In this document: positions 60,509-64,000 of the stretch, piece after piece
Numbering within the stretch: the first letter of the stretch is position 1
How the letters are laid out: each line of letters opens with the position of its first letter
Source: an uncultured Bacteriovoracaceae bacterium
GTDB taxonomy: Bacteria; Bdellovibrionota; Bacteriovoracia; Bacteriovoracales; Bacteriovoracaceae
DNA length: 64,000 nt
Direction of reading: 5' to 3'
Assembly: GCA_937931205.1 (NCBI GenBank)
Contig: CALHBF010000013.1
Location: forward strand, 62,001-126,000
Position numbers and translations under genes: made by a program
Notes under the pieces: generated by a model
The model's input: only the letters and a program-made list of their open reading frames with translations
What the model was told of the DNA's origin: nothing
The model's database searches: none

Positions 60509-60511
60509 TTG

Positions 60512-63235
60512 ATGAAAAGTTATTCTACAAAACTGCTTATACTTTCAAGTCTCCTTTTATCTCAGCTTTCATGGGGAGCTGCTGATGAACCTTGCTCTCT
60601 GAGCGCTGATCTATTGGGAGTAGGAGCTGCGACGGGATGTGTTAGTGGTGAGAATAAGGATTTCGGTGCTCTCTATAAGAGGGTTGCGAAGTCTGCTAAT
60701 ACCTTTGATAACTATGTAAGTATAAATGCCAATCAGAAATCATTTAATCCGGATGCCCTGTATTCAGGAGAGAACTTCCATTGCTCAGTATTTAAGGTCA
60801 ATAGAGAGGATTGTGAGGAAGAGGCGACGCCTGGATCTGAGCTTTCTAGCTTTATGTATGATTCGATTACGGCTATCAGCAGTTACGGCTGGTCTACGAT
60901 GGGTGGCAAGGAGATTAGTCGTGATAACGAGCTGTCGCAGAAGTGTGCCTGTATTGAAACTAATTTTTATGTGAGTTCTCCGGGTATAAAACCAAAAGAG
61001 ATTGAGAGTTACATCACTTCTCAAAAAGAGAAGGCTTCAGAAAAAGTTCTCAAGGCTTACGGTAAAAAATTTCTCAACGAATACGCTCTTTTTTTTGAAG
61101 ATATGATTTATCTGGTTAACCAGACGAAAGTTATTCAGGGTAAGACCAAGGAATCACTTTTTTGTCGAGGCTCTGAACAAATCCAAAAAGAAATTTCGAA
61201 GAAGTGTCCGGGAGTTAGTTCAGGGCAATTAGAAAAGAGAATGGGGTTACTGTTTGAAGGTATTGAAGGCCCTGAAAAAAAATCTGATTTAAATTCTATT
61301 TTAAGTTTCGTAGATGCTTCAACTGTTCAGCGTAAAGTGGTGGATGCAAATGGAGCTGAGGTGATTTATGCCAGAACAGAATTTGATAAATCAAGATTTG
61401 GACTAACTTTAAGTCCTGAATTCCGCTTCGTAGATAGTATGCTTACTGAAGTTATCTTCAATGATGAGAATTTTAGAGAAAAATTTATGTATAGACCCAG
61501 CGAGGGCCTAGAAAGTGTAGCTGAACATCTTGCTGAACAGTTAAAAAACAATTTTGATGAAACAGTAGTGAAGCTTTCTCGTAATGGAAGACCTACTAAA
61601 GCTATCCTTGACGAGTTAAATGCTCTTAAAACGCAATCAAAAGACGCCGTCAGTGATAAGTTGAAAAATTACTTATTAGATTCTGTGGCCATTCATCCAG
61701 GGTTATCGGCCATTCTGCTTGAGCCAGGTTTACTCCAGCAAACACTAAGAGCGACTAGAGGGAAGAAGAGTAATAGTCTTATGGAAAGTCTTCAGAATAA
61801 TTTTTCATTTCTTGAAGATCATATGAAAGAGAAATGCGATAGTATGGTAAGCCAGTTTGCACAAGTGGCATGTCTTCCTCCTGAAAATGTTCTTGCTCAT
61901 CTTCCTAAGTCTTCATTGAAACAACTCATTGAAGAGGAAGAGAATTTTGCTCCTAATCAGAATATTAATGATCTTATTGATTGCGCATCTGGTGAGAAGA
62001 AGTTCGGACCTTTTGAGAATCTCTCTCAAAATGGATCATCAGTAGTCCAGTCAGATTTTTTGGCCCTTTACGATGGTAAGAATAAAAAGCCTCAAGATTC
62101 CTTTTCCCTTTTTGCTGAATCATTGGCCAACAAAAATCAGGAAGGTGACCTGATTGCAAAAGCCGCTAATGTTTACTATCAGAGAGGCGGTAGAGAGTCA
62201 GTGTATGAGCCTTTATCAAAATATGTGGGCAACAATGAAAATAAACTGATCGATTCAAATGGTAATACGATGACGATCGCTCAGCGTGAGGCAGCGAGAG
62301 TTGCTGAACGCAATAGAGAGCAAAGCCTTGAGTCTTCACAGGGGAATCAAATTTCTCAGATGACTGCTGCTAAAGCCCCAATGAGTTCTTCTCTAAGTGA
62401 TTTTAGGATCGGGGGAAATTCTATCTTTAATAATTCTTCCGCTAAAGCAGTCTCCGAATTTTTATCTAAGAGAGAAGATAAAAAAGAGATAGATCAACAT
62501 ATTTCTCGAGTCGAGAATTCTGAGTTAAAGAAACTTCAGGAATTTAAAGATTCAGTTCTCGCAGATAAAGAAGCTAGTTTGTTAAAACAACTGGATGATG
62601 AAAAGAAAAGTTTAAGTGAGCTAAGAAGCCAAATTGATAAACTAACGACTGGGAAAAACAATGTTGTCGATCACACTCAGCAGCAGCAGCAGCAACCTCG
62701 TCAAATGGGCAGTAGAGTAGAAGAGAGTAGAGTTGCTATTGATCAAAGAGTGCAATTTGCTCAATCCCAGAACAGCGAAGTGAGTTCATCTCGCAGTTTT
62801 GATAGAGCTCCGGCCTCTGTTGCTTTTTCTACAGGAGGATCTGCGATGGGAGCCTCAGCAATGGGAAGATCACTTGCACCAAGTGCGCCGAATAGTTCGA
62901 CACAGAAGGCAGTCGCTGGACTTCAGCTTCAGGATGAGAAGAATTTCTTTAAAGATTCAAAAGAGCTATCAGATAAAATTGTTGATTACTTGAAAAATGC
63001 AGATGGAGAAACTTTCTTGAAATTTACCAAGGAAGGAGTCGTCTACAAGTATAAAGTTGTTGAGAATGGGGTAGAGGTTGAGAAAGAGGTCTATGTCTCT
63101 TTATCTGATCTGGATACTAATCTGATTAAAGAAATTATTAAGAACTCTGAAGAGAAAATCTCATTGTTAGAGAGAAAATATTCATTCGATTCTCTAAAAA
63201 TGATCATTACTGAAGAAGTCACTTCTAAGCAATGA
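60512..63235 (+). CDS. Large exported protein of unknown function
   Basis: A 907-residue protein with a signal peptide (KLLILSSLLLSQLSWGAA). Residues 25-240 contain most of its cysteines (PCSLSADL, FHCSVFK, REDCEEE, CACIETN). Residues 240-500 are mostly helical. From about 615 to 715 there is a coiled-coil region rich in Lys and Glu that ends in a run of glutamines (QQQQQ) and a Ser/Gly/Ala-rich linker, then a small C-terminal domain (residues about 815-907) of helices and strands. No known family. The gene starts with ATG 60512 or the adjacent TTG 60509, without a clear ribosome-binding site, and faces the lexA group. Confidence 0.65.
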   Translation: MKSYSTKLLILSSLLLSQLSWGAADEPCSLSADLLGVGAATGCVSGENKDFGALYKRVAKSANTFDNYVSINANQKSFNPDALYSGENFHCSVFKVNREDCEEEATPGSELSSFMYDSITAISSYGWSTMGGKEISRDNELSQKCACIETNFYVSSPGIKPKEIESYITSQKEKASEKVLKAYGKKFLNEYALFFEDMIYLVNQTKVIQGKTKESLFCRGSEQIQKEISKKCPGVSSGQLEKRMGLLFEGIEGPEKKSDLNSILSFVDASTVQRKVVDANGAEVIYARTEFDKSRFGLTLSPEFRFVDSMLTEVIFNDENFREKFMYRPSEGLESVAEHLAEQLKNNFDETVVKLSRNGRPTKAILDELNALKTQSKDAVSDKLKNYLLDSVAIHPGLSAILLEPGLLQQTLRATRGKKSNSLMESLQNNFSFLEDHMKEKCDSMVSQFAQVACLPPENVLAHLPKSSLKQLIEEEENFAPNQNINDLIDCASGEKKFGPFENLSQNGSSVVQSDFLALYDGKNKKPQDSFSLFAESLANKNQEGDLIAKAANVYYQRGGRESVYEPLSKYVGNNENKLIDSNGNTMTIAQREAARVAERNREQSLESSQGNQISQMTAAKAPMSSSLSDFRIGGNSIFNNSSAKAVSEFLSKREDKKEIDQHISRVENSELKKLQEFKDSVLADKEASLLKQLDDEKKSLSELRSQIDKLTTGKNNVVDHTQQQQQQPRQMGSRVEESRVAIDQRVQFAQSQNSEVSSSRSFDRAPASVAFSTGGSAMGASAMGRSLAPSAPNSSTQKAVAGLQLQDEKNFFKDSKELSDKIVDYLKNADGETFLKFTKEGVVYKYKVVENGVEVEKEVYVSLSDLDTNLIKEIIKNSEEKISLLERKYSFDSLKMIITEEVTSKQ

Positions 63236-63236
63236 G

Positions 63237-63260
63237 GGTGGGAGTTAAAAAACTCCCACC
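63237..63260. terminator. Hairpin at the convergent 3' ends
   Basis: GGTGGGAGTT and AACTCCCACC form a perfect 10-bp stem with an AAAA loop just after the stop of the secreted protein gene, and contain the stop codon of the 29-residue gene on the minus strand. No U-tract on either side, so its terminator strength is uncertain. Confidence 0.6.
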
Positions 63261-63334
63261 AATGAGAAAAATATAAAGCTTCCAATAAGAATAAGAACTG
63301 ATCGAGTAATCCATAAATCTTCATTCGTAATCAT
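63245..63334 (-). CDS. 29-residue single-pass membrane peptide
   Basis: A very small ORF. The ATG at 63334 is preceded by GAGG at six bases. The peptide has a short polar N-terminus (MITNEDLWITR) and one hydrophobic helix (SVLILIGSFIFFSLVGVF), then a TAA stop. Length and layout fit regulatory inner-membrane micropeptides. It lies downstream of lexA and a 62-residue gene on the same strand, and has its own operator (see 63357). Function unknown; a stress-response membrane peptide is one idea. Not related, by eye, to KdpF, CydX or CcoQ. Confidence 0.6.
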   Translation of the reverse strand: MITNEDLWITRSVLILIGSFIFFSLVGVF

Positions 63335-63350
63335 TCAAAACCTCATTGTT

Positions 63351-63356
63351 ATTATG
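63351..63356 (-). promoter_or_regulatory. Candidate -10 box of the 29-residue gene
   Basis: CATAAT on the minus strand, giving transcription from about 63344 and a leader of about 10 bases. The -35 is poor, and the CRP-like palindrome occupies the spacer, an arrangement typical of repression. Confidence 0.3.
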
Positions 63357-63374
63357 TTGTGAAATTCTTCACAA
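63357..63374. promoter_or_regulatory. Perfect CRP/FNR-type palindrome TTGTGAA-N4-TTCACAA
   Basis: The core reads TGTGA-N6-TCACA (63358-63373), identical to the CRP consensus half-sites. It lies in the 42-base gap between the 62-residue and 29-residue genes, next to a possible -10. A CRP/FNR-family protein is the likely ligand; none is in this window. Confidence 0.65.
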
Positions 63375-63376
63375 AC

Positions 63377-63565
63377 TTATTGCAGGAAGTATTGGTCAAC
63401 AAGACTGAGATCTGAGTTGAGTGTCAGAAGTAAATCTAAGAAATCCCAAGTCATTTCTTGGGCAAGACGATCATCAACTTGGTATCTATTCATTAGTTCA
63501 TTCTGGATCCTAATAAAGAGATCCGTTTCATAAATTTTAGAAAAAAGGCGTGAAGAAGCCTGCAT
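63377..63565 (-). CDS. Small protein of unknown function downstream of lexA
   Basis: A 62-residue protein (begins MQASSRLFSKIYETDLFIRI) with an excellent AAGGAGG four bases before the ATG. It is helical and acidic toward the end (FLDLLLTLNSDLSLVDQYFLQ), with no signal peptide or cysteines. It starts 48 bases after the lexA stop on the same strand, so it may be cotranscribed with lexA. I recognise no family. Confidence 0.7.
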   Translation of the reverse strand: MQASSRLFSKIYETDLFIRIQNELMNRYQVDDRLAQEMTWDFLDLLLTLNSDLSLVDQYFLQ

Positions 63566-63613: not shown

Positions 63614-64000
63614 TTAGTAGGTTCTTATCAGGCCAACCAAGAGTCCTCGAATTTCACATTCCTTGTCTTTGACAATGATGGGAGTCATCGTCGAGTTGGC
63701 AGGGTGAAGTTCGATTTGACGGGCCTTCTTAAAATATTTTTTAAGAGTTGTTTCATTATCAATCACAGCAACTACGATCTGCCCGTTATTGGCCTGTGTT
63801 TGATGCTTAATGACTGCGATATCACCATTAAGAATTCCTTCTTCAATCATTGATTCTCCCTTCACTCGAAGGGCATAGTGCTGTCCTTTGCCAAGCATGT
63901 GGGTTGGAACGCTGATGAAGTCAGAGTTTTCGATGGCTTCGATAGGAATACCGGCAGCAATTTCACCAAGAAGAGGAATTTCTTCAGTATGCTGTTGAAC
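63614..64000 (-). CDS. lexA: LexA repressor, C-terminal protease part (runs off the right edge)
   Basis: The visible 128 residues cover the cleavage site and the S24 peptidase domain. EIPLLGEIAAGIPIEA contains the Ala-Gly bond cut during SOS; ALRVKGESMIEEGILNGDIAVI holds the catalytic Ser, and ETTLKKYFKKA the catalytic Lys. The ending IRGLLVGLIRTY is typical of LexA. The DNA-binding domain is outside the window. UmuD-like proteins are shorter and unlikely. Two small genes lie downstream on the same strand. Confidence 0.9.
   Translation of the reverse strand, partial: VQQHTEEIPLLGEIAAGIPIEAIENSDFISVPTHMLGKGQHYALRVKGESMIEEGILNGDIAVIKHQTQANNGQIVVAVIDNETTLKKYFKKARQIELHPANSTMTPIIVKDKECEIRGLLVGLIRTY

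Follow-up and report, generated by a model that had tools for sequence, protein, structure and literature searches.

In bacteria, SOS inhibitors of cell division are often single-span membrane proteins that are encoded adjacent to lexA. In this group YneA and ChiZ contain a LysM domain, whereas sosA is known for being transcribed divergently from lexA (PMC6851548). SidA is a 29-amino-acid inner-membrane SOS inhibitor that acts on FtsW (PMC4211646). Another peptide of 29 amino acids, TisB, is controlled by LexA and held back by structure in its 5' UTR (PMC8145889); its charged and polar residues are reported to matter (PMC11449926). The literature that we searched does not describe how DNA damage is coupled to growth in this part of the Bdellovibrio-Bacteriovorax group, most of which is uncultured. 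Here we describe a locus that offers a testable candidate SOS effector for the Bacteriovoracaceae, a probable LexA box of the clade, and a strongly covarying RNA element that matches no Rfam family.

A peptide gene downstream of lexA

The window, by which we mean the whole 64,000-nucleotide stretch of DNA analysed, comes from an uncultured Bacteriovoracaceae bacterium and ends within lexA (Table 1). A sequence-only reading had called attention to a very small ORF following lexA and a 62-residue gene. Its coordinates, the length of the product (MITNEDLWITRSVLILIGSFIFFSLVGVF) and the GAGG site before the ATG are correct, and the gene order can be read directly, with lexA identified by its match to TIGR00498. 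The peptide ORF is separated from the 62-codon ORF by 42 bases. On its other side is a convergent 908-codon ORF (60509-63235, + strand) that ends at 63235. The hairpin over the stop codon of the peptide gene probably marks the end of both the operon and this convergent gene, and it may act as a terminator; no U-tract follows it on the minus strand. In congeners, the genes downstream of the peptide are convergent and vary.

Table 1. Features of the locus, in the numbering of the window
Feature	Position	Strand	Basis
lexA, C-terminal part (start lies beyond the window)	63614..64000	-	TIGR00498, E 2.3e-39
Gene for a 62-residue soluble protein, predicted to have three helices; Shine-Dalgarno AAGGAGG	63377..63565	-	Congeners and other genera; AlphaFold2
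RNA hairpin TTGTGAA-GAAT-TTCACAA, formerly read as a CRP operator	63357..63374	-	7-bp stem, GAAU loop
Shine-Dalgarno GAGG of the peptide gene	63341..63344	-	Read directly, six bases 5' of the ATG
Gene for a 29-residue peptide with a single predicted transmembrane span	63245..63334	-	Congener homologues; pN/pS
Hairpin GGTGGGAGTT-TTTT-AACTCCCACC over the peptide stop codon	63237..63260	-	Read directly; 10-bp stem in fold

We collected the locus from congeners by whole-genome searches with the 62-residue protein; the genomes that carry it are metagenome-assembled Bacteriovoracaceae records. A homologue of the peptide occupies the same position in 25 of 26 congeneric genomes, and the one genome that the search missed is 59% complete. 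These congeners have the peptide gene near lexA, the place where the sequence-only reading had suggested looking for it in relatives. All 25 genomes with the 62-residue gene have the order lexA, a gene of about 62 codons, and the peptide gene, and all 25 have a GGAGG-like site 5' of the peptide ORF. The ORFs are 29-32 codons long, each with its own ribosome-binding site (n=25). Because it is conserved in 25 species, the peptide ORF is far beyond chance, and on these comparative grounds it is a real gene, the last of the predicted lexA operon.

The homologues have the consensus MVTEQDLWISRSxLILIGSFIFFSLxGxI, in which L7, W8, S12, S19, F20 and F23 are invariant. The single hydrophobic helix that had been proposed for the peptide is consistent with all homologues: residues 13-29 are hydrophobic and include no charged residue in 23 of 23. 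The C-terminus coincides with the end of this predicted span, and there is no periplasmic domain. The gene is under purifying selection, with a pN/pS ratio of about 0.27 and a pS value close to saturation, and stop codons mostly break the other two frames. Conserved residues did not form a significant stripe along the helix (p 0.18-0.33), and therefore the sequence does not indicate a protein partner. A profile of the peptide gave exactly one match per genome in 14 of 14 sampled congeners and none in 101 sampled genomes of other genera in the family, so by this search the peptide is genus-specific. Comparison with Pfam and NCBIfam gave no family match.

Direct repeats upstream of lexA

The lexA promoter lies outside the window at G000:C13:126215-126258 and contains two TACGG-N6-TACGG direct repeats with a period of 11. 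A pair of direct repeats of the type TACGGAA-N4-TACG[GC] is present upstream of lexA in all congeners examined, and the first repeat overlaps the lexA -35/-10 elements (TTGAAC-N17-TATACT). When up to one mismatch is allowed, the repeat is also found in the genome of the window 5' of recN and of an umuD-like S24 gene (loci L073 and L069). Sites of this type number 10 genome-wide against 11 for a reversed control and, therefore, it is their position rather than their number that is evidence. From that position, TACGG-N6-TACGG is likely to be the LexA box of the clade. The LexA box of Bdellovibrio bacteriovorus is TTAC-N3-GTAA (PMC8565304), so the clade of the window would differ from it.

No box of this type was found beside the peptide gene or between it and the 62-residue gene. 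The peptide would therefore depend on read-through in the lexA operon, most simply from the lexA promoter by co-transcription. The peptide gene is the third after this promoter, and its control by LexA through the operon promoter appears more likely than control by CRP.

In many congeners (L041-L060), the gene located upstream of lexA encodes a cysteine motif (SNICNLQCTFCPE) similar to that of radical SAM proteins. It was not seen directly upstream of lexA in the genome of the window.

A conserved hairpin in the leader of the peptide gene

In the 42-base gap before the peptide gene, a stem of 7 bp encloses a GAAT loop. Such a stem arises in shuffled gaps with a frequency of 1.8e-4, and only as a hairpin is the palindrome of the window beyond chance. 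The gap is about 80-118 bases long in relatives (33 in L023) and has a conserved GAAT with paired arms, as in GTAAC-GAAT-GTTAC, GTGGC-GAAT-GCCAC, GAAGC-GAAT-GCTTC and GTTTC-GAAT-GAAAC. In an alignment of 23 sequences, 87.5% of cells pair compared with 69% after shuffling, and double (compensatory) changes occur among relatives in 8 of 8 stem pairs. The covariation score was 0.60, compared with 0.26 for shuffled alignments and at most 0.17 when the alignment was slid. A second alignment with 10 pairs agreed with the first and showed, in addition, two bulges: one of 1 base on the 5' side and one of 3 bases on the 3' side, the latter followed by GG. The GAAU loop is invariant and is closed by C-G, G-C, U-G or A-U. 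On average the leader hairpins are more stable than shuffles (mean z -1.9). Among the congeners, L023 no longer has the hairpin.

The copy in the window appears to be a reduced or minimal form of this covarying element, with its homology resting on position and loop; it was not detected by a covariance model of the hairpin. Covariance searches gave only one strong match per congener and, therefore, point to no wider regulon. No credible Rfam match was found for the hairpin at 19 loci. Genera g5 and g66 also have the hairpin after the 62-residue gene. In g5 it takes the form GCTTG-GAAT-CAAGC or one of two other sequences, and in g66 (L130/L101) it tips a strong, plain intrinsic terminator of the lexA operon, after which there is no peptide gene.

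We considered several ways in which the leader might act. Folds suggested that a conserved TTCTC sequesters the Shine-Dalgarno site, an idea not supported by a shuffle test, in which this site was as accessible in the real leaders as after shuffling (mean rank 0.51, p 0.55). A U-tract terminator following the hairpin was not supported either (9 of 24 compared with 6.9 expected, not significant). An upstream ORF from the ATG inside GAATG was rejected, as it is without a Shine-Dalgarno site, meets immediate stops in L002 and L025, and has no conserved frame length. From the sequence of the window alone, the Shine-Dalgarno site is predicted to pair with the peptide ORF. In some species, the structured leader may allow little expression of the peptide. 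The TTCTC motif occurs 5-12 bases after the stop codon of the 62-residue gene in 19 of 23 leaders (L002-L025), compared with 2.6 expected, and is not explained by pairing with the Shine-Dalgarno site.

The locus in other genera

At the threshold of the whole-genome search, the 62-residue gene was found in 25 of 26 congener genomes and one other genus. Overall, the protein was found in eight genera of the family, namely the genus of the window (25 congeners) and seven others, and its gene sits after lexA wherever this was checked. It was not found outside the family in a sample of 291 genomes from the phylum. The AlphaFold2 model of the protein has three helices with a mean pLDDT of 86. Genome G129 has two separate copies of the gene (L157, L158), and a tiny transmembrane ORF of its own comes after each copy; contamination of this genome is 9% and one copy may be foreign.

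The 62-residue homologues of other genera are diverged, and in g38 the gene is lost or reduced. Five other genera have a different single-span peptide of 20-53 residues in the slot after lexA and the 62-residue gene: 21-24 amino acids in g10, g38 and g62 (MFFDFFIISLILYIIARFLPENS and similar), 20 in g41, and 46-53 in g5. The chance of finding any such hydrophobic ORF is 0.1-2% per locus for g10, g38, g41 and g62. Genera g54 and g66 have no tiny hydrophobic ORF in the slot. Homology among the three peptide types from different genera was not detected, which is expected because the sequences are so short.

Possible functions of the peptide

Single-span inhibitors are found adjacent to lexA and SidA is itself 29 amino acids long; therefore, a brake on division or on a membrane activity is the leading reading. 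We tentatively propose that the peptide is a real inner-membrane microprotein of a LexA-autoregulated operon that is induced in the SOS response and most likely acts as such a brake, working like SidA or YneA and SosA. Taken whole, we give this proposal somewhat less than an even chance. DNA damage would lead to LexA cleavage and transcription of the lexA operon, and read-through past the conserved GAAU-loop hairpin would then supply a small dose of peptide. The peptide would most likely delay the synthesis of the septum, or some other activity of the inner membrane, during DNA repair. In this scheme we infer that the genes are co-transcribed and induced by SOS, that the peptide inserts into the membrane, what it targets and how the hairpin acts. 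The likeness to SidA and YneA, raised before any relatives were compared, holds up as a lead, with the peptide conserved alongside lexA in the 25 congeners that have the locus.

The peptide might instead be membrane-active in the manner of TisB or DinQ, so that under SOS induction it lowers the proton motive force and the cell rests while the structured leader limits translation. TisB has the same length, LexA control and restraint by 5' UTR structure (PMC8145889), and the leader of the peptide gene contains a conserved hairpin. However, residues 13-29 are without charge in all 23 homologues, unlike TisB, and sequestration of the Shine-Dalgarno site is no stronger than in shuffled leaders. We consider this unlikely.

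It is similarly unlikely that the peptide regulates a membrane protein, or is a small accessory subunit of one, with no relation to division, so that linkage to lexA provides only damage-dependent dosing. The high residue conservation (invariant L, W, S, S, F and F) would suit a peptide that binds a partner better than one that disrupts membranes nonspecifically. On the other hand, other genera fill the slot with dissimilar peptides and there is no linked partner gene, the downstream genes being convergent and varying.

A broader reading, which we regard as rather improbable, is that Bacteriovoracaceae keep a permanent place at the end of the lexA operon for single-span SOS membrane effectors that differ from lineage to lineage. 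This place would be accompanied, in three genera, by a new cis-acting RNA, the GAAU-loop hairpin with its 1-base and 3-base bulges, which might set the dose or timing of the effector and might be read by the upstream 62-residue protein.

As a refinement of any of these readings, the 62-residue protein could be a stand-alone ANTAR-like RNA-binding protein, which by binding to the GAAU hairpin would govern how far transcription reads through into the peptide gene. The gene and the hairpin adjoin in three genera, the protein is modelled as three helices, and the ANTAR domains of EutV and AmiR headed the Foldseek list for a first model. However, all Foldseek E-values were above 1, EutV ranked only fourth with a second model, and a Pfam scan of 18 homologues of the protein gave no ANTAR score. 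Moreover, the GAAU loop is without the signature of ANTAR RNAs, a hexaloop with A1 and G4 (PMC8934654), and genera g10, g41 and g62 have the protein with the hairpin absent. With a fold match that is weak and not reproduced by the second model, we rejected an ANTAR identity, and this refinement seems very unlikely.

Sites for transcription factors keep their arms while the center drifts. The sequence-only reading had placed the peptide gene under CRP/FNR control on finding a CRP-type operator, TGTGAAGAATTTCACA at 63358-63373, over a promoter region, and this is the sole exact match to TGTGA-N6-TCACA in the window. We find such control hardly credible, since the pattern is not enriched (three sites in the 3.08 Mb genome compared with two for the reversed control pattern), no sigma-70-like promoter was found in the gap between the 62-residue gene and the peptide gene nor any promoter-like site at the palindrome, and in relatives the arms vary with pairing kept while the central GAAU is conserved, the opposite of what a CRP site would show. 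The sequence of the palindrome is not conserved in relatives, which have the covarying hairpin in its place, and the supposed operator is better explained as the stem of that RNA hairpin. A palindrome that resembles an operator and yet is a hairpin stem is a caution for annotation from sequence alone.

Comparison with known systems

ANTAR systems such as EutV and AmiR resemble this locus in having a small three-helix protein beside a conserved hairpin. They differ from it in that there is no sequence match and a weak fold match, and the loop here is a GAAU tetraloop rather than an A1/G4 hexaloop. The TisB and DinQ type I toxins are, like the candidate described here, tiny SOS-linked membrane peptides with a structured leader. 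By contrast, there are no charges in the predicted span of our peptide, the leader structure differs, and sequestration of the Shine-Dalgarno site is not supported.

We propose that the peptide may work like SidA or YneA, as a candidate counterpart in function. YneA, SosA, DivS and ChiZ are likewise single-span proteins encoded beside lexA, although here one gene lies between. They are larger than the peptide of the window and have an extracytoplasmic C-terminal region, often with LysM, whereas the peptide is without such a region and has no Pfam match. Its gene is also co-directional with lexA and third in line, whereas sosA is divergent. SidA of Caulobacter crescentus has a length of 29 residues and a single inner-membrane span, as predicted for the peptide, and is tied to LexA, as the peptide may be. 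SidA is not known to be encoded in a lexA operon, whereas the peptide gene of the window follows lexA. SidA acts on FtsW (PMC4211646).
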